Assembly: GCF_000424005.1 (NCBI RefSeq) | Contig: NZ_AUJB01000013.1 | Span: forward strand, 1-64,000 | DNA length: 64,000 nucleotides | Direction: 5' to 3' | Source of the DNA: Pseudobutyrivibrio ruminis CF1b | GTDB lineage: Bacteria > Bacillota > Clostridia > Lachnospirales > Lachnospiraceae | The notes under the pieces: generated by a model | What the model saw: the letters and a program-made list of their open reading frames with translations, nothing else | The model's database searches: none | What the model was told of the DNA's origin: nothing | Part shown: in pieces, positions 2 to 61,525 of the stretch | How the letters are laid out: every line of letters begins with the position of its first letter | How positions within the stretch are numbered: position 1 is the first letter of the stretch | Translations under genes and position numbers: made by a program

Positions 2-3000
2 TTTGAGGCTTTTGTAAATGACGACACCCATACTGGTGAAGAAGCGGACAATTCTAAGGGATTTGTAAAAGAAAGACAGATACCTTTACTTATAGATATA
101 ACAGATGATATTCAGCAGCTGGAAACACTTCAGGACGAGATTATGTCGTCCTTTATTTCAGATGTTGATAATTCACCTAATGCCATAATTAAGACAGAGT
201 ACCTTGATAAGGTTACTCTTGATTTTGGTAAATATGAGGACTCACTCAAGGGCATTGGCGAGCAGATTGAAAATCTGGCTGCAGATTTGAATGCTACCTG
301 TTCCGAGGTAGGAAGTTATCTTGCACCAGATTACAGAAATTATTTCACCACAATGGAGACTCTTGCCAGCAATGATGGTATGAGTGGTGTTGCTCCTGAT
401 ACAAAAAAGAAGTTTGAGAACTTTGATTCCACACATGCAAATGATGTAAGCATGAGTGTTTACCAGACTCTTTACGATACCATCATGTCTAATATTGAGT
501 CATTTATTAATGGTATCGGAAATGGCACAAGCTATGATATCAGAACATATAATGGTAAGCACTTTGACCTTAAGTGGGACAGCCCATTAAACCACCTTTC
601 TGGTGCAGCTCTTGAAGAATACCTTAAGTATGTAGAAGACATGCATGCATACTTAAAGGGTAAGAAGGAGCGTTGCGAGGTTTACAAGTACGACCCTGTA
701 AACATGTGTAACGGTAACTACATCAATGAGCATACAGACATTACTCTTGGTGGAAGATATGAGCTTGAATTCAAGAGATTCTATAACTCTATTGCAAATG
801 AGCTTAAGGACCTTGGATGGGGCTGGACTCATAACTTTGAGGTTCGTATATACGATATCCAGGGAGCTGACAAAATCCGTATCGCATATGCGGATGGTAG
901 TGAGGGTACCTTCAAAAAAGAGAAAAACTTCTACGTGGAAGAGCACGGTGAACCAGGTATTCTTGAAAAGCTTGAGGATGGTATGGGATATATCATCAGA
1001 CAGGATGACGGAAGCTATGAGAAGTTTGACGGGGCAGGTCTTCTTGTATCCCTTGGCGATATCGATGGAGATCACACGGTAGTTCATTACGAAATTCTTG
1101 AAGACAGAGGCAGAAGACTAAAGAGCGTAGAGACAAAGAACGGAAACGCTCTTACATTCACATACTATGAGGATGGCGAAAATGCCGGACTAATCAGTAA
1201 AGTGACCGACCATACAGGCAGGTCTGTTTGCTATACCTATGATGAGAAAATGCAGCTTACAGAAATCACAGAGCTTGATGGTGCTGTAAGAAAGTTTACT
1301 TATACAGAAGATGGAAAGATTAAGGATGTAATTAATCCAAAGGGAATCGTTGCCATTACAAATGAGTATGATAAGCAGCATCGTACAGTAAAGCAGAGCT
1401 TCCCTGATAACTCTATAATGACTTACGAGTACGACGACATCAATAAGACTACTACAGCCACAGAACAGAATGGTAATAAGGTAGTCTATACCCATGATGA
1501 TCTGGAGCGTCATACAGCTACAGAGTACTATGACGGAACTGAGTATTACACTTATAATACAAGAAACCAGAAGACCAGCTTTACAGATAAGAGAGGCAAT
1601 ACAACACGTTTTGCCTATGATAACAAGGGCCACCTTACAAAGATTGTGGATGCCCTTGGTAATAAGACATTTATCACCTACAGAGCTGATGGCAAGCCTA
1701 TGGCTGTAAAGGGTCCTAAGGGTGAGGAATATAAGTACAGCTATAATCTTGAGGGTAAGCTTTTTGAGCTTAGAAACCCACTTGATGAGACTAACAGATT
1801 CTACTATAAGGATGGAAATCTTTATAAGACCAGAAATGCAAATGGTGGAGTGACTCTTTTTGATTATGATGAAAAGGGTAACGTAAATACCATAACTGAT
1901 CCTGACGGAGTTGTTACAGAGTACGCTTATGATGAGCTTAACCGTGTAGTGGAGACAACCACAGCTGACGGGGCAGTTACAACATACGAATACGATAATG
2001 CTGATAGAATCATAAAGACTACAGATGCTCTTGGTAACACAAGAGAGTATACCTATGATGAAATGGGTAAGGTGACATCTGTAAAAGAGGCAGACGGTAC
2101 AGTAAAGAACTTTGAAATGAATGTCATGGGACGTGTTTCAAAGGTTACTGATGAGGCAGGCTTTGTAACAGAAATCACTTATAACGTAATGGGAGAGCAG
2201 GAAAAGGTATGCTTGCCTAATGGTGGAACCATTCTTTATGAGTATGACCCACTAATGCGCCTTACTAAGGTTACTGATCCAGAGGGAAGAACAAGCGGTT
2301 ACGAGTATGATAAGAACGGAAATGTGGTAGCTGAGTATCTTGGAGATATCAGAGTTCGTACATTAGAGTATGATGAGCTTAATCGTGTAACAAAAGAGAC
2401 TGATGCTCTCGGTCATGAAAAGACTTATGAGTATGATGAGAACGGCCAGGTGATTTGTGCTACTGACACTCTTGGTAACAGATACACTAGAGACTACGAT
2501 TTACTTGGAAGAGTAGTAAAAGAGACAGATGCTCTTGGAAATGAGACATCATATACATATACAAAGCTTGGAAATATCGAAACTGTAACTGATCCAGCTG
2601 GAAGAGTTCGTAAATACGAATACACAGATGGTGGAAAGCTTAAGGCTATTTACTTCTGCGGAAGATTAGAGCAGAGCCTTGATTATGATACAGTAGGAAG
2701 AATTGTAAAGAGAAGCTTTGCTGATGGCTATGAGATTTCTTACAGCTATGATGTCTTAAGCCGTATAGCAAAAGTAGAAGGCTCGGATGGCCGTACAGTT
2801 TCATACGAGTATGATGCCATGGGACGTGCCACAAAGGTTGCAGATGGCAGAAGCACAACACTTTATACTTACACAGCTACAGGTCGATTAAAGAGCGTAG
2901 TGGATGCTCTTGGAAACGAGACAGCATACACATATGATGCACTTGATAACCTTAAGAGCGTTCACAGAGCTGAAGGCAGAGTTGAAGATGACAAGATGCC

Positions 3001-5281
3001 TGTAGTAGGTGAGGATGGTCACGTAACACTCTATTCTTATGATCTTTCAGGTCAGCTTACAACTATCACAGATGCCATTGGTCAGGAAGAGACTTATGAG
3101 TACGACCAGTACGGACGTCTTAAGACTAAGACTGACAGAGATAATTTTGCTACAAGCTACAGCTACAATAACCTTGGTGCAGTAACTAAGGTAGGCTATG
3201 GAGATGGCAGAAGCGTTGAGTTTGCATACAACGAATTAAATCAGCTTAATGAGATTAATGACTGGCTTGGTAAGACTACACTTGAAAACGATATTTTAGG
3301 TCGTCTTACAAAGGTAACAGATTACCAGAACAGAACTGTAGGTTACGAATACAATGCCATAGGAGAAAAGACAAAGCTTGTTTATCCAGACGGAAGAGTA
3401 GCAGCTTATACATATGATGCAGAAGGAAAGCTTTCAGGTATTTCTGGAAATGGCGAGGAGACTACATACTCTTATGATGAGCTTGGAAGACTCTCCCTTA
3501 AGCTTCTTCCAAACGGTGTATCTACAGAGTACTCATACCTTCCAGGTGGAAATCTTGAGAGCATGACAAGCTACGACAGCAAGGGCGAGCTTGATAAGTA
3601 TTTCTATTCTTATGACAATGCAGGACTTATCTCTGGAATCAACAGAAATAGACGCGATCTCGAGAAAGTTTCAGGACAGTATAAGTATAGCTATGATGCA
3701 ATAGGTCGACTTACACAGACCACACATGATGGAATGGTTAAGTCTGCTTATGAGTACGATGCATTTGGAAACAGAACATTACTTGCTGAACATGATTCTA
3801 GAACTTCGTATACATATGATGTATTAGACAGACTTGTTCAGGCTAAGGAACTTAATAACAGCCAGGCTATCGTAAAATCTTACGAATATGATAAGCGTGG
3901 TAACCAGACTAAAGAGTACGTGGATGGTCTTTTACAAAAGACCTTTACTTTTGATGCAACAAATATGCTATCAAAAGTGGTAGACTTAAATAAGGGAGAG
4001 GTAGAGAACCAGTATAATGGTCTTGGCTTTAGAGTAGCATCTACCCGACCAGAAGAGAAAATTGAATACTTATGTGACCTTTCAAGAGACTACTATAACC
4101 TTCTTGAGCGCACAGTTAACGGCGAGACAGAGTCATTCATCTACGATAATAATGTAGTAAGCATGAGCAAATCAGGCAATAACTACTATTATCTCCAGGA
4201 TGAGCTTGGTTCTCCAATGTACATGACTGGAACAGACGGTGTAGCAGTGTCATCTTATGCTTTTGATGACTTTGGAAGAAACGTAGATCCATTCACAGGT
4301 AAAATCAAAGAGCATAAACATGGCTACACAACAGATGGCAACATCATCCAGCCATTTGCATTTACAGGCTATCAGGAGGACGAGGTATCAGGTCTTAAGT
4401 TTGCTCAGGCGAGATTCTATAGTGCTGAGAATGGTAGATTTGTTGGGGAAGATCAGGTAAGAGGATTTGTAGAATTACCTGATACGATAAATCATTACGT
4501 ATACTGTATAAATAATCCTAAAAAGTTTATTGATAAAAATGGTAAGTTTTTAGCAACAGTAGCTATAGGTGCAGGCATAGGTGCTGCCGTTGGATTTATA
4601 GGAAGTGTTGCAGAACAAGTAGCTGATGGTAAAAGCTTGTCAGAAGTAAATTATAAAGAGGCAGGCAAAACTGCTGTAAAGGGGGCAATTGCAGGTGCCG
4701 TTGTAGGTACAGGAGTAGGAGCAGTTGCAGCCGTAGCTCAAGCCGCTACAGTTGTATCTGTTGGATGTGCGCTATCAAATGGAGCTGCAACTGCTGTTGG
4801 TTTGGCCACAGTTTTACCATCCACTGCTATTGGAGCGTTACAGGGTGATGCAGCGGCTAGACTTACAGGCGCAAGTAGATGGAATGGAGTATTTAGTGGT
4901 GCTATAAACGGAGCAGTTTCTAGTTCGGTTGAATATGTAACAAAGGGAAATTCATTTTTGGCTCAATTCGCTGGAGGATTTAGTGGAAATATTGCAGCAG
5001 ACATGTTTGACAATATGGATAATCCCAAAAATAAAAAAAGTGCATTCGACATAGGTATGAGAGGAGTCATGGCAGGTAGTTTGCAGGCGGGACTTGCTGG
5101 ACCAGGTGCATGGGGGCTATATTCAGCTGGAGCTTCGGCAGGACTTTCTAATTTTTGCGGAATGATTTTTGGATTCGGAGCAACTTTTTCAACTGTGGGC
5201 TCGAATTATATATATGATAAATTTAAGGAAAGAAATAACGCAGAAAAAACTATAGTTGAAAACAATTGTGTAGATGATTGA
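2..5281 (+). CDS. Rhs/YD-repeat polymorphic toxin, 5'-partial
   Basis: Large Rhs protein, probably an exported contact-dependent toxin. The frame is open from base 2 with no stop before the ATG at 143, so that ATG is internal and the gene starts outside the window. A helical N-terminal region (to about base 670) is followed by a DUF6531-like segment (DPVNMCNGNY, LGWGWTHNFE; about 680-850). More than thirty YD repeats of the YxYDxxGRL type then form the presumed beta-cage. The Rhs core (YYYLQDELGSPMYMT to RFVGEDQ) ends near 4456. After it comes a roughly 270-residue Gly/Ala-rich hydrophobic tip with several possible membrane segments and no recognised nuclease motif, so a membrane-acting toxin is plausible. 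The gene at 5290 follows by 8 bases and is the likely immunity partner. Rhs identity is strong; the tip activity is inference. Confidence 0.93.
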   Translation, partial: FEAFVNDDTHTGEEADNSKGFVKERQIPLLIDITDDIQQLETLQDEIMSSFISDVDNSPNAIIKTEYLDKVTLDFGKYEDSLKGIGEQIENLAADLNATCSEVGSYLAPDYRNYFTTMETLASNDGMSGVAPDTKKKFENFDSTHANDVSMSVYQTLYDTIMSNIESFINGIGNGTSYDIRTYNGKHFDLKWDSPLNHLSGAALEEYLKYVEDMHAYLKGKKERCEVYKYDPVNMCNGNYINEHTDITLGGRYELEFKRFYNSIANELKDLGWGWTHNFEVRIYDIQGADKIRIAYADGSEGTFKKEKNFYVEEHGEPGILEKLEDGMGYIIRQDDGSYEKFDGAGLLVSLGDIDGDHTVVHYEILEDRGRRLKSVETKNGNALTFTYYEDGENAGLISKVTDHTGRSVCYTYDEKMQLTEITELDGAVRKFTYTEDGKIKDVINPKGIVAITNEYDKQHRTVKQSFPDNSIMTYEYDDINKTTTATEQNGNKVVYTHDDLERHTATEYYDGTEYYTYNTRNQKTSFTDKRGNTTRFAYDNKGHLTKIVDALGNKTFITYRADGKPMAVKGPKGEEYKYSYNLEGKLFELRNPLDETNRFYYKDGNLYKTRNANGGVTLFDYDEKGNVNTITDPDGVVTEYAYDELNRVVETTTADGAVTTYEYDNADRIIKTTDALGNTREYTYDEMGKVTSVKEADGTVKNFEMNVMGRVSKVTDEAGFVTEITYNVMGEQEKVCLPNGGTILYEYDPLMRLTKVTDPEGRTSGYEYDKNGNVVAEYLGDIRVRTLEYDELNRVTKETDALGHEKTYEYDENGQVICATDTLGNRYTRDYDLLGRVVKETDALGNETSYTYTKLGNIETVTDPAGRVRKYEYTDGGKLKAIYFCGRLEQSLDYDTVGRIVKRSFADGYEISYSYDVLSRIAKVEGSDGRTVSYEYDAMGRATKVADGRSTTLYTYTATGRLKSVVDALGNETAYTYDALDNLKSVHRAEGRVEDDKMPVVGEDGHVTLYSYDLSGQLTTITDAIGQEETYEYDQYGRLKTKTDRDNFATSYSYNNLGAVTKVGYGDGRSVEFAYNELNQLNEINDWLGKTTLENDILGRLTKVTDYQNRTVGYEYNAIGEKTKLVYPDGRVAAYTYDAEGKLSGISGNGEETTYSYDELGRLSLKLLPNGVSTEYSYLPGGNLESMTSYDSKGELDKYFYSYDNAGLISGINRNRRDLEKVSGQYKYSYDAIGRLTQTTHDGMVKSAYEYDAFGNRTLLAEHDSRTSYTYDVLDRLVQAKELNNSQAIVKSYEYDKRGNQTKEYVDGLLQKTFTFDATNMLSKVVDLNKGEVENQYNGLGFRVASTRPEEKIEYLCDLSRDYYNLLERTVNGETESFIYDNNVVSMSKSGNNYYYLQDELGSPMYMTGTDGVAVSSYAFDDFGRNVDPFTGKIKEHKHGYTTDGNIIQPFAFTGYQEDEVSGLKFAQARFYSAENGRFVGEDQVRGFVELPDTINHYVYCINNPKKFIDKNGKFLATVAIGAGIGAAVGFIGSVAEQVADGKSLSEVNYKEAGKTAVKGAIAGAVVGTGVGAVAAVAQAATVVSVGCALSNGAATAVGLATVLPSTAIGALQGDAAARLTGASRWNGVFSGAINGAVSSSVEYVTKGNSFLAQFAGGFSGNIAADMFDNMDNPKNKKSAFDIGMRGVMAGSLQAGLAGPGAWGLYSAGASAGLSNFCGMIFGFGATFSTVGSNYIYDKFKERNNAEKTIVENNCVDD

Positions 5282-21524: not shown

Positions 21525-21724
21525 TCCCGAGCAGTACTAACTTCATTTTTCTTTCTAGCACTGCTCATTTCTCTTCTTCCGAGCAGTGCTGCATTCATTT
21601 TTGCTTCTAGCACTGCTCATTCCTCTTCTTCCGAGCAGTGCTGCATTCATTTTTGCTTCTAGCACTGCCCATTTCTCTTCTTCCGAGCAGTGCTGCAAGC
21701 TTTCTCTTCTCTAGTACTGCCTGC
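21525..21724. repeat. Tandem array of inverted repeats, 52-bp period
   Basis: Four units. Arms GAGCAGTGCT start at 21529 (one mismatch), 21581, 21633 and 21685. Complementary arms AGCACTGCTC start at 21557, 21609, 21661 and 21713 (the last two degenerate). Arm-to-arm distance is always 28 and period always 52. The filler is pyrimidine-rich on the plus strand (TTCATTTTTGCTTCT, ATTTCTCTTCTTCC). The period is not a multiple of three and stops occur, so it is not coding. The rest of 21366-21842 shows no convincing gene. Confidence 0.9.
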
Positions 21725-38254: not shown

Positions 38255-38284
38255 AGGGCTACCTCATGTGAGGTAGCCCTTTTT
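38255..38284 (+). terminator. Terminator of mecA
   Basis: Perfect 12-bp stem AGGGCTACCTCA/TGAGGTAGCCCT, two-base loop, then T4. Confidence 0.9.
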
Positions 38285-38344
38285 GGGTGAGTATCTTTTA
38301 TCTAAGCCTTTTTGGGTGAGTATCTTTTATCTAAGCCTTTTTGG
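38278..38344 (+). repeat. 29-bp tandem repeat, two copies plus partial
   Basis: Units begin CCTTTTTGGGTGAG at 38278 and 38307. A third start at 38336 diverges after nine bases. It overlaps the mecA terminator tail, so it may have arisen by slippage there. Confidence 0.85.
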
Positions 38345-38393
38345 AGAACATCTTTTGAGGTCTTTACCTTTTTGTGTATTGCTTGTCTCGTTT

Positions 38394-38518
38394 TTGTCAA
38401 AACACCCTTGTTCAGGCTGCATTCATTCATTGCCCTTTGACACAATTAGGTGTTTTAACATGTTATTTTGTCAAAAGGAAGCTTTTGAGCCCGCGTACTT
38501 CCGTTGGTCATTGACAAA
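38394..38518 (-). repeat. Hairpin-repeat array B, left part (two units, minus orientation)
   Basis: TTGTCAAA starts at 38394 and 38468. Its partner TTGACAAA (first copy one mismatch) starts at 38437 and 38511, so arm-to-arm distance is 43 and period 74. Read on the minus strand the interiors (GACCAACGGAAGTACGCGGG) align with those at 39783-40051. It lies downstream of the PD-(D/E)XK-like gene. Confidence 0.8.
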
Positions 38519-38566
38519 AAAATCTCTGCTGGATGCGCCTAATAACCCCACCATAATATCCTAGCT

Positions 38567-39271
38567 CTATATATGCATCTGAACCAAAGCGGCTTCTGCA
38601 TCCTTATATGTGAATGGGTGCTCGCTTGATTCAAATGTTAGTATAAGATTTTTTCCAGCAATAAGCCCATGCTCTTGAAAGGTTTTTATTTTAGCTAAAG
38701 CATTCTTGCTGTAATTATAGTCATCCATTTTTCCAAAATGCTCCCAGTAAAATAGCTGCTTTGTGATAGGATGAAGAATAGTGAAATCTGGATAAAATGT
38801 CACATTACCTATGACTAATTCACATTCATATCTATAGGGAATATTATGTTGAGAAAGAACAATATCTATTAGTTGCTCAGATTTTGATCTAACCCTATTT
38901 CCAGATGGACAAACGTATGTTAAATGTTCAGCATATTTAGGATTAGATATAAATTTTTCGGTCATCCAATCATGATAGTTATCATTATTGCATGTAGTAG
39001 AAGATAGAAGCTGCGAATAACCTGATTGTGTTAGAAATTGTTCAAGTGCCAATTCTTTCTCTTCAATATCTTCATAATACATTTGCAGGAATTTATATTC
39101 CGCTAATAAATATGAATTTTTTAATGAAAGATATTTTTTCCTGGAGAGTTCCTGCGCTAAATCTTTTTTTGACTTGTCAAGAAAAGTTGTTTTACCATCT
39201 TTTGAGTAGTACCACCTATAGTATTTACCATTTGGATATATTCGAAGTTCTCCTTCAGGAAGGCTGGACAA
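38567..39271 (-). CDS. PD-(D/E)XK-like nuclease-fold protein of unknown role
   Basis: 234 residues from TTG 39271. N-terminal LPEGELRIYPNGKYYRWYY, a helical middle (KKDLAQELSRKKYLSLKNSY), and a C-terminal domain with VRSKSEQLIDIVLSQHNIPY, VTFYPDFTILHP, FYWEHFGKMDDYNYS and NLILTFESS. The E...PD...WEH spacing fits a PD-(D/E)XK fold, and this family is widespread and uncharacterised in Firmicutes. The frame stays open upstream to 39365; family members I recall start with a coiled-coil that here lies in that extension. An AAAGGAG site (39346-39352) faces an ATC codon at 39337 where ATG is expected. The true start may be non-standard or lost. The gene is flanked by inverted hairpin arrays. Confidence 0.75.
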   Translation of the reverse strand: MSSLPEGELRIYPNGKYYRWYYSKDGKTTFLDKSKKDLAQELSRKKYLSLKNSYLLAEYKFLQMYYEDIEEKELALEQFLTQSGYSQLLSSTTCNNDNYHDWMTEKFISNPKYAEHLTYVCPSGNRVRSKSEQLIDIVLSQHNIPYRYECELVIGNVTFYPDFTILHPITKQLFYWEHFGKMDDYNYSKNALAKIKTFQEHGLIAGKNLILTFESSEHPFTYKDAEAALVQMHI

Positions 39272-39782
39272 TTCGCTGTTTATTTCGTTAAGCTCTTTTT
39301 TTATATTATTTATTCTGTTACTAATATATTCTTTGATAGTGATTTCTCCTTTGTATAGAAATTGTTAATTATTTTGTTGTAGTTAAATTGGAAAATTGAA
39401 TTTGAAAATCATTATATTTAAATGTAAAAGTATTGCATTCATAAAAACATGGACTAAAAATTTATAAGGTTCAGCTTATTATGCGAAATACTTTGAAATA
39501 ATATGAGGTAATAGAGATTATTTAATTTGTTTAAGATGTATACATAGTGTCAATATAGATTCTTGTTTTATCAGAAAATCAAGAACCAGGGTTGGACCAA
39601 TATTTTATGAAAGAAAATATTGCCTGGCTAAAGTCAGATTCTTGTGGGACTTTTCATTATGATGCCCACATGAAGTCATAGCATTGAACTAGTGGTTATT
39701 ATATAAATTATTTTGAAAAAAGACTTAAATTTTATAACATTAATAGCTTGTAATGTCAATCTATAAATATATTTTTGAATCA

Positions 39783-40051
39783 TTGTCAAAGACCGACGGA
39801 GATATGCGGGCTGAGGAAGGTGTATTGACAAAATGAAGAGAAAAAAGTGTGATTTTGTCAAAATTCAACGAAACCAAGCGGCCTGCCGAGGTGCTTTTGA
39901 CAAAAATCAATGTAAATGTCCTGATCTTTGTCAAAGGCCAACGAAACCAAGCGGTCTTCCGAGGTGCTTTTGACAAAAAACCAATGTAAATGCTCTGATC
40001 TTTGTCAAAGGCTAACGAAAATAAGCAGTTTGCATAGGTGTCTTTGACAAA
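39783..40051 (+). repeat. Hairpin-repeat array B, right part (four units)
   Basis: TTGTCAAA starts at 39783, 39855, 39928 and 40002. Partner TTGACAAA starts at 39825, 39897, 39970 and 40044. Arm-to-arm distance is 42 in all four, period 72-74. Interiors share the pattern CCAACGAAACCAAGCGG...GAGGTGCT. Short spacers also repeat (AATCAATGTAAATG). The region 39366-39780 before it is AT-rich with one perfect hairpin (CAATATTTT/AAAATATTG at 39598-39622) and no gene. Confidence 0.9.
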
Positions 40052-59965: not shown

Positions 59966-60994
59966 ATGAAGGGTTTTTTGAAAAAGGTGACGGTCTGTCT
60001 GTTGATGGGCACGCTGCTTTGCGGATGTAGCAGCAGAGCCGGAGAGGCTGCCCAGACCCAGCCAGAGGAGGACGAGCTGGAGATAGGAATGTGCTTCGAC
60101 TCCTTTGTAATCGAGAGATGGGAAAAGGACAGAGACGTATTTGTTGATACGGCTTCGTCTCTAGGAGCCACAGTAAATGTTCAGAATGCAAATGGGGATG
60201 TTGAAAAGCAGATTGAACAGATTCAGTATTTAATAGATAAGAAGGTAGATTGCATTGTTATTATCGCCATAGACGCAGAGGCTCTTACTGATGTGGTAAT
60301 AGATGCTAAAAAAGCTGGGATTCCAGTAGTGTGTTACGACCGACTTATTCCTAACGTAAATGCGGATTTATATATTTCCTTTGATAATGAAAAAGTTGGA
60401 AGTATGCTTGGTAATGCCATAGTTAGTTCAGGTGCTAAAAAAGTTATTATGATTTGCGGACCATATACAGATATGAATGTTCCTATGGTAAACCAGGGCT
60501 TCACCAAATTGATGAACGCAAACAGCATAGATATCCTTGATACATATAATTGTGAGGGTTGGAAAGCTGAGCTTGGTGGAGCATATGTATATGATCACAT
60601 GGATTTAGTACGTACTGCCGATGCTATCATGTGCGGAAATGATGATGTAGCAACTTCTGTAATCAAAGCTCTTGCTGTTGCACAGCTTGCTGGAGAAATC
60701 CCAGTAGTTGGGCAGGATGCAGATCTTCCAGCATGCCAGCACATAGTGCAGGGCACACAGCTGATGACAGTGTATAAGCCAGTAGGCAAGCTTGCCGAGG
60801 AAGCAGCAAAGCTTTCAGTACAGTTGGCTCAGGGGCAGGATCTTTCTGTAATGAATAGCATTAGCGACGGCGAAAACACAATTCCATATGTAGCCATCGA
60901 ACCTGTGGCAGTCAATAAAGACAATCTTGATGAAGTCATCATAGATGGAGGCTTCCACAGCCGTGAGGACGTATACTTAAATGTGGGTGAATAA
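59966..60994 (+). CDS. Sugar-binding lipoprotein
   Basis: 342 residues. Signal with lipobox LLCGCSS. Type-I sugar-binding fold: VEKQIEQIQYLIDKKVDCIV, GIPVVCYDRLIPN, MICGPYTDMNVPMVNQGF, CGNDDVATSVIKALA, PVVGQDADLPACQHIVQGTQ. Resembles ChvE-type binding proteins and the one at 61677, but ends differently. Follows the regulator by 32 bases (AAGGAG). Possibly a second ligand-sensing or uptake protein for the same sugar system. Confidence 0.88.
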   Translation: MKGFLKKVTVCLLMGTLLCGCSSRAGEAAQTQPEEDELEIGMCFDSFVIERWEKDRDVFVDTASSLGATVNVQNANGDVEKQIEQIQYLIDKKVDCIVIIAIDAEALTDVVIDAKKAGIPVVCYDRLIPNVNADLYISFDNEKVGSMLGNAIVSSGAKKVIMICGPYTDMNVPMVNQGFTKLMNANSIDILDTYNCEGWKAELGGAYVYDHMDLVRTADAIMCGNDDVATSVIKALAVAQLAGEIPVVGQDADLPACQHIVQGTQLMTVYKPVGKLAEEAAKLSVQLAQGQDLSVMNSISDGENTIPYVAIEPVAVNKDNLDEVIIDGGFHSREDVYLNVGE

Positions 60995-61008
60995 TGGTAA
61001 TTGATATA

Positions 61009-61040
61009 AGGCCGGATGAGGTGTCTCATCTGGTCTTATT
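61009..61040 (+). terminator. Terminator-like hairpin
   Basis: AAGGCCGGATGAG GTGT CTCATCTGGTCTT stem with a short T-tract. Ends the sensor operon. Confidence 0.6.
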
Positions 61041-61081
61041 AATGCATCCCAAAACAATAAAGGTTGGAGTTGGGATGCATT
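61041..61081. repeat. Isolated 12-bp inverted repeat
   Basis: AATGCATCCCAA (61041-61052) and TTGGGATGCATT (61070-61081). Perfect arms, start-to-start 29, the same distance as in the neighbouring array C but a different motif. Confidence 0.85.
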
Positions 61082-61101
61082 CTAAGTATGAATTACAGGT
61101 A

Positions 61102-61424
61102 TTTTACGGGTGAAACCAGGAGATGGATTATTTTACCCGTAAAAATATATTGCAGTAAAATTACATTACGGGTATAGATTAGAATTTTCTATTATCACCC
61201 GTAAAAAATCTTCATTTTTAAAGACTTTTACGGGTAGAAAATTAGAAAGCTATAATCTACCCGTAATTCGTATTCACAGAAACCACAATATGGGTAATAA
61301 CTTTTGAAAAATACGGGTATTTTGGAACCTTTATTAGATATACCCGTAATTTAGAAAAAACATTGATTTTTAAATTGGAAATTTACGGGTGTAATCTAAC
61401 TAAACTAATCATTTACCCGTAAAT
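61102..61424. repeat. Array C of TACGGGT/ACCCGTA inverted pairs
   Basis: ACGGGT starts at 61106, 61168, 61230, 61313 and 61385. Partner ACCCGT starts at 61135, 61197, 61259, 61342 and 61415. Arm-to-arm distance is 29, 29, 29, 29 and 30. Pair-to-pair distance is 62, 62, 83 and 72, with a degenerate ATGGGT at 61290 in the wider gap. The first pair extends to TTTTACGGGT/ACCCGTAAAA. Filler is AT-rich and unique. No ORF. 61425-61525 shows nothing further. Confidence 0.92.
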
Positions 61425-61525
61425 AAGTAACATGGCGCCGCCATAGCCCCATTTATATCATGTGGCAAAAGCAGGTTGAAAAACAAATAGTGGATAGAAT
61501 AGCATATTATTGTAATTACGATATA

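Follow-up and report, generated by a model that had tools for sequence, protein, structure and literature searches.

The window analysed here, 64,000 nt of the Pseudobutyrivibrio ruminis CF1b genome (positions 1 to 64,000 of contig NZ_AUJB01000013.1), contains a small nuclease gene flanked on both sides by arrays of short inverted repeats, together with two further arrays that have no such gene beside them (Table 1). The six repeat units beside the gene are 51-52 nt long, end in TTTGTCAAA and TTTGACAAA, and place arms of like orientation 72-74 nt apart. A sequence-only reading of this DNA had described two hairpin-repeat units downstream and four upstream of the gene, with a period of 72-74 and opposite orientation on the two sides; all six were found at 38393-40051 with that spacing, and the left pair is indeed reversed relative to the right four. 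The shared interior that it reported (CCAACG..AAGCGG) was likewise recovered, with 7 matches to the interior consensus vs. a mean of 0.6 in 20 shuffles, a count that is not an independent test because these arrays were among those from which the consensus had been compiled by eye. At up to 2 mismatches per pair, the other TTTGTCAAA/TTTGACAAA pairs listed for the 64 kb are just two, which bridge neighbouring units of the same array. Across the 3.27-Mb genome, a search restricted to two exact, narrow patterns located the pair at one further place, the cut end of contig C9 (reversed-pattern control, 0). A second TTTGTCAAA-type array is cut off there by the contig end (L002:1501-1601), and may be an orphan array or a piece of an unassembled locus.

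Table 1. Features of the nuclease locus and of the orphan arrays in the window.
Feature	Position	Strand	Basis and remarks
Nuclease gene	38567..39271	-	234 aa from TTG at 39271; family alignment and structure
C-terminal PD-(D/E)XK-like domain	38570..38970	-	about residues 101-234; invariant residues, fold neighbours
N-terminal domain	38971..39271	-	about residues 1-100; three-stranded sheet and long helix 33-82
Cis array downstream of the nuclease gene	38393..38518	-	two units, 38393-38444 and 38467-38518, reverse type
Cis array upstream of the nuclease gene	39782..40051	+	units 39782-39832, 39854-39904, 39927-39977, 40001-40051
Orphan array, arms AGCACTGC/AGTACTGC	21531..21720	.	assigned to paralogue L010 (contig C2)
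Inserted segment with the 61 kb orphan array	60983..61482 (approximate)	.	absent from congeners; junctions judged by eye
Single ATGCATCC..GGATGCAT unit	61042..61080	.	arm of another family member; abuts the 61 kb orphan array
Orphan array, arms TTACGGGT/ACCCGTAA	61093..61428	.	cognate of paralogue L009 (contig C7)

The gene is a member of an unnamed nuclease family, in which an N-terminal domain of a sheet plus a long helix precedes a C-terminal PD-(D/E)XK nuclease with an invariant core. More specifically, E132, E149, D162, E177, H178 and E214 are invariant in all 145 full-length members, and position 194 is K in 142 and R in 3. The catalytic domain aligns with PD-(D/E)XK nucleases among its fold neighbours; TnsA (Tn7), I-Bth0305I, Bax1 and VRR_NUC show moderate Z and 10-15% identity to it, which indicates the fold only. 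Scanning 32 members against Pfam and NCBIfam returned nothing beyond one chance-level hit each, that in Pfam being DUF2812 at 0.0091.

The window genome holds nine paralogues, and the family is present in 28 of 29 genomes of the genus, with 1-12 copies each. Matches were obtained in 113 of 299 Lachnospiraceae genomes (a sample of about one per genus, weak hits counted) and in 19 of 398 genomes of a phylum sample. Full-length matches were seen in five of these 19 genomes, all of them Lachnospiraceae, and the other 14 match chiefly the nuclease part, several inside open frames of about 650-1270 aa. Relatives by record name include Roseburia, Agathobacter, Treponema and Baileyella. Among 50,697 phage records only two matched, both partially, and no relative was confirmed among viral contigs.

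The frame of the window gene stays open to about 39364, with an AAAGGAG Shine-Dalgarno-like motif, and an ATC codon at about 39337 is a possible non-canonical start. In-frame ATG, GTG or TTG codons ahead of the conserved region are missing from 13 of the 145 full-length genes. By eye, several genes (window 39271-39364, L047, L016, L017, L018, L019) show a strong Shine-Dalgarno motif followed by ATA, ATT or ATC, a pattern that suggests non-canonical starts and low expression.

Genes of this family are associated with arrays. Self-comparison and reading of the nine paralogous loci of the window genome revealed arrays with differing arms, and a significant array of inverted 8-bp arms was detected at 117 of 148 distinct gene loci, the best 8-mer found on both strands having to beat all 40 dinucleotide shuffles. 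Flanks of MecA-like genes from the same genus served as controls (27 considered, 5 too short, 22 used); two of the 22 gave an array, in both cases an orphan array of this type (arms AGGTAGTA and GGGATGCA). The 31 gene loci without a significant array include degenerate arrays recognized by eye (L005, L010) and truncated flanks. The proposed link between a nuclease-fold protein and its own repeats is supported by the 117 homologue loci. Bracketing by inverted arrays, which the sequence-only reading described for the window gene, is not supported as a defining feature: the 97 strong arrays lie upstream only in 52 cases, downstream only in 16 and on both sides in 29. Two-sided arrays, as judged by eye, may share one orientation (L093) or mix orientations (L018).

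The arms co-vary with the protein, a point that the sequence-only reading had proposed to check. Within the 97 of 148 loci that are full-length and score above 15, the arm was common to 17/17 pairs at protein identities of at least 90%, 15/18 at 70-90%, 14/25 at 60-70%, 21/119 at 50-60%, 6/439 at 40-50% and 3/4038 below 40%; neither the arrays within one locus nor the protein pairs are independent. The arm follows the N-terminal domain. At C-terminal identities of 75-85%, mean N-terminal identity was 0.72 for same-arm pairs (n=11) vs. 0.36 for different-arm pairs (n=10), and over the range 55-85% the contrast reached p = 4e-8 in a rank test on 50 vs. 197 non-independent pairs. By this correlation the N-terminal domain (about residues 1-100) determines the arm, and we infer that it is the specificity domain. 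At loci L118 and L079, both flanks are syntenic and the nuclease domains near-identical, with divergent N-termini, different arms and a sharp change-over between the two parts. Where loci are syntenic, a change of arm can go along with a change of N-terminal domain, the nuclease domain being kept. The arrays of one clade (L003, L018, L084, L051, L052, L095) have a common asymmetric interior (about CAACGGARANATGCGGGCT) despite differing arms, hinting at a second recognised element.

The geometry of the arrays follows the DNA helix. Neighbouring arms at distances below 60 nt have opposite orientations in 582 of 672 cases, and same-orientation intervals cluster near 42, 52, 63, 73, 84, 94 and 105 nt, those of about 105 nt being in part sums of two intervals. 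A scan of periods from 7 to 16 peaked at 10.55 bp (R=0.77, n=587 intervals). Phasing persisted on 229 distinct-per-locus values (R=0.68; 500 random sets peak at 0.23) and after removal of the two main interval classes (R=0.59, n=108; 0/5,000 random sets as high). The orphan arrays, which had no part in finding the period, are phased as well (R=0.94, n=54 intervals from 8 arrays; 0/20,000 random sets reach this value). If the arms paired as an RNA stem, an excess of G-U mismatches would be expected; the mismatches of 749 inverted arm pairs show no such bias (96 GT vs. 114 AC, p=0.24). With spacings at multiples of 10.5 bp and no G-U bias, the sites therefore most probably act as double-stranded DNA and not as RNA hairpins, and we are highly confident that the protein recognises the arrays in this form. 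The idea that the repeat works as a structured hairpin is not supported by the same two observations.

Cognate arrays also occur in trans. Six strong arrays were found in 465.6 kb (the window, twenty 20-kb stretches and L002; the reversed-arm control gave one cluster), each with the arm of one of the nine paralogues, and five of them have no adjoining gene. Extrapolated, this corresponds to about 35 orphan arrays per genome. Both grounds on which the sequence-only reading would have fallen, repeats scattered genome-wide without a link to the gene and homologues lacking flanking repeats, were checked: homologues do carry arrays in their flanks, and in the sampled parts of the genome the repeats have the arm of a specific paralogue. 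The five sampled orphan arrays overlap no open reading frame of at least 100 aa, and three are situated between convergent genes. The array of L010, the paralogue to which the 21 kb array is assigned, is degenerate and missed the shuffle test; its upstream flank contains 8 such arms with at most one mismatch (4 exact), vs. a maximum of 4 (1 exact) in 20 shuffles. For the arm of the 61 kb array, 15 exact TTACGGGT pairs were counted in the whole genome, at five arrays of which one is cis (reversed control, 0).

The link in trans extends across the 29 genomes of the genus. At least four exact ATGCATCC pairs are present in 8/11 genomes with a cognate N-terminus (at least 67% identity) vs. 2/18 without (Fisher p=0.0013), and any exact pair in 9/11 vs. 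10/18. This link is not absolute: G007 and G016 have a cognate N-terminus yet no exact pair, and G012 and G013 hold 9 and 8 pairs with no cognate N-terminus detected (G012 is 81% complete). In the window genome, no cognate ATGCATCC N-terminus above 49% identity was found. Its only two exact ATGCATCC units (G000:C1:159806-159844 and that in the window) both adjoin arrays of the TTACGGGT type, a position that would fit the overwriting of one type by another.

The arms of orphan arrays are conserved beyond their surroundings. Between the arrays at 61 kb and at C1:159 kb of the same genome, 77/80 arm positions are identical vs. 116/236 others, and between L235 and L135 of G027 the counts are 70/72 and 92/153. 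In these two compared pairs, arms are thus 96-97% conserved and the rest 49-60%, which suggests that selection acts on the arms. The 61 kb array has been gained: it is located in a 682-nt intergenic stretch that measures 213, 189 and 212 nt in G027, G019 and G001. Across 27 measured orthologous loci from 26 congeners, 23 intergenic lengths are 171-303 nt, two are 361-394 nt and two are 839-849 nt. No array is present at any of the 27, where the top motif score is 13.4 vs. 50.8 in the window and no locus has two TTACGGGT-like arms.

Gene and array can also be found together at a new place. GGTATAAC-type genes with their arrays in G003 and G007 (L080/L104) are 97.5% identical over 932 nt within unrelated flanks. 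A 15-bp direct repeat, TATTTACGAAATAAA, was seen by eye on either side of the relocated gene-plus-array (L080, about 1525 and 2790) and may have served for attachment or as a target. Neither target-site duplications nor terminal repeats were found. Downstream of the gene in L104, about 110 nt of hairpin-rich sequence appear by eye to have been inserted into the arm of an array unit (GGTAT/AACC), interrupting the unit. Among the loci retrieved from 10 genomes, 32 of 45 pairs of genes from different species with at least 60% identity have a common outer flank; therefore the genes mostly keep their places, where their arms can change. One hairpin module holds different array types in G000, G019 and G027, and its outer parts are 80-87% identical across differing genomic places and species. 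Three orphan-arm types were seen within or beside this one large-hairpin module (L235:6454-7050, L135:2298-2988, L136:2258-2866 and the left part of L239, about 1215-1435). From these sequence comparisons, the module around the orphan arrays may be the real mobile unit.

To explain these patterns, we propose, with a probability of about 0.55, that the members of the family are site-specific DNA nucleases, each encoded by a single gene and provided with site arrays of its own, mobilisation of the arrays included. The N-terminal domain would recognise, in double-stranded form, a site of about 8-10 bp that differs between lineages. Copies of the protein would line up next to each other along one helical face, on sites of alternating orientation at whole-turn spacing, both on the array beside the gene and on cognate arrays elsewhere. 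The C-terminal PD-(D/E)XK domain would cut or nick the DNA at the array or close to it. When the cut DNA is repaired or copied, arrays, and occasionally gene plus array, would spread to new intergenic sites, as has been proposed for RAYTs and their REPINs; the gene-side array probably also restrains expression of the nuclease. Binding, cleavage and mobilisation by the nuclease are what we infer, and array mobilisation is favoured by analogy with RAYT/REPIN.

The main rival to mobilisation is a role as hub, sensor or defence, which we consider rather unlikely. The arrays would then serve as binding hubs, be it for storing, sensing or restraining the nuclease, for organising the chromosome or for controlling expression. 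The nuclease would act on incoming DNA or competing elements, and an arms race like that of restriction specificity subunits would underlie specificity switching. Such a role agrees with the largely syntenic gene loci whose specificity switches in place, with the resemblance of the nuclease domain to the C-terminal domain of PDC-S68/S69 (PADLOC) in 32/32 members, with the positions of the five sampled orphan arrays, and with the weak start codons, which fit tight control. It is at odds with the gain of arrays at new places, with the occupation of one common module by different types, and with the two partial matches among phage records and the viral contigs devoid of confirmed relatives. A drive like that of homing endonucleases appears improbable: the protein would cut array-free or differently armed alleles, and repair would copy its own cassette, giving in-place switches of N-terminus and array. 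Homing destroys its own site upon insertion, whereas here the element itself carries many copies of the sites that it recognises, and orphan arrays in trans are left unaccounted for.

An RNA system, in which transcribed hairpins serve as a type III RNA antitoxin or as guides for an RNA-using nuclease, is very unlikely. Inverted arms could form stems, and 52 of 97 arrays lie upstream only, where transcription is possible; against this stand the helical phasing of the arms, the lack of a G-U excess, the orphan arrays without a gene, and the absence of any Rfam match in the window at gathering thresholds. A type III toxin-antitoxin system in particular is disfavoured, indirectly, by the DNA phasing, the mismatch counts and the Rfam result. 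As to a toxin of the ToxN endoribonuclease fold, the observation is that the catalytic domain aligns with PD-(D/E)XK nucleases. That ordinary dispersed REP or MITE-like repeats lie near the gene by chance has a negligible probability. Copies do occur away from the gene, but chance proximity is refuted by the 117/148 gene loci vs. 2/22 controls, by arm-protein co-variation and by the 6/6 sampled strong arrays that match a paralogue of the same genome.

Among known systems, the nuclease-array system appears by analogy to work most like RAYT/REPIN, sharing none of their parts. Excerpts of the published accounts describe a RAYT nuclease gene flanked by its own palindromic REP repeats, with a different gene for every repeat type, further cognate repeats of a non-autonomous kind in other intergenic regions, and co-evolution of protein and repeat (PMC3116915, PMC6006769). 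The present genes are similarly flanked by their own repeat type, with cognate repeats dispersed in trans. They differ in fold, which is PD-(D/E)XK where RAYT is an HUH/Y1 transposase, in their long arrays of many phased, probably double-stranded sites where REP forms single-strand hairpins with a guide tetranucleotide (GTAG type), and in the small number of trans arrays (for the single arm type counted genome-wide, 4 in addition to the cis array). The exchangeable N-terminal specificity domain and the 1-12 paralogues per genome further set the family apart. An HUH/Y1 (TnpA-REP) identity is excluded by the family scan of 32 members, the PD-(D/E)XK core and the fold neighbours.

In HsdS of Type I restriction, a swap of the recognition domain with the rest of the protein kept changes the DNA word that is read. 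Our family likewise exchanges a recognition domain on a constant remainder, but is a single-gene nuclease whose own sites are amplified in arrays beside the gene. TIGR-Tas, in the excerpted description, pairs a gene with an adjacent array of short repeated units that are palindromic in some clades (PMC12045711). The gene adjoining such an array is a common trait; unlike in TIGR-Tas, the arms are phased as DNA sites and lack the wobble signal of RNA pairing, and the Pfam scan of 32 members contained no Nop, HNH or RuvC domain. TIGR-Tas identity is ruled out by the lack of a Nop domain in these 32 members. The nuclease domain is homologous to that of the candidate defence proteins PDC-S68/PDC-S69 (32/32 members match, best 7.5e-34). 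The PDC-S68 profiles span 1202-1273 positions vs. 234 aa here, and the match of the window protein covers no more than about 100-125 profile positions close to their end. Membership in PDC-S68 is rejected on this length and on a match confined to profile positions 1088-1212 of 1221.

Literature searches found no published description of such a nuclease-array system. It has the look of a self-recognising DNA system of a new type, and comprises an unnamed nuclease family, abundant in Lachnospiraceae of gut and rumen, tied to repeats that bear its own recognition words. Whole helical turns and alternating orientation predict a cooperative nucleoprotein assembly, and the naturally occurring pairs of N-terminal domain and 8-bp word would make a protein-DNA code legible and provide a case of specificity switching that can be tested. 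If the proposal is true, RAYT/REPIN logic arose independently on another nuclease fold. A bolder version, which we hold tentatively, is that of a new class of self-recognising DNA element, in which a compact nuclease with an exchangeable DNA-reading domain would assemble on phased arrays of its own sites and in this way move or rewrite them around the chromosome. Dozens of natural specificities would switch as N-terminus-plus-array cassettes, and overwriting by rival-word arrays in the shared hairpin module would represent competition within the genome.

Additional features were noted near these loci. Some paralogues are spaced about 30 kb apart on one contig (G027:C10 at 77.9, 109.9 and 139.9 kb; G000:C7 at 23.0 and 56.0 kb). 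In the 61 kb orthologue of G011 and G022 (L270, L271; intergenic, about 2514-3364), an inverted-repeat-rich stretch of about 840 nt, free of arrays, was seen by eye. Between the MecA-like gene and the downstream array of the window gene, at 38278-38335, lies a 29-bp tandem in two exact copies (CCTTTTTGGGTGAGTATCTTTTATCTAAG).
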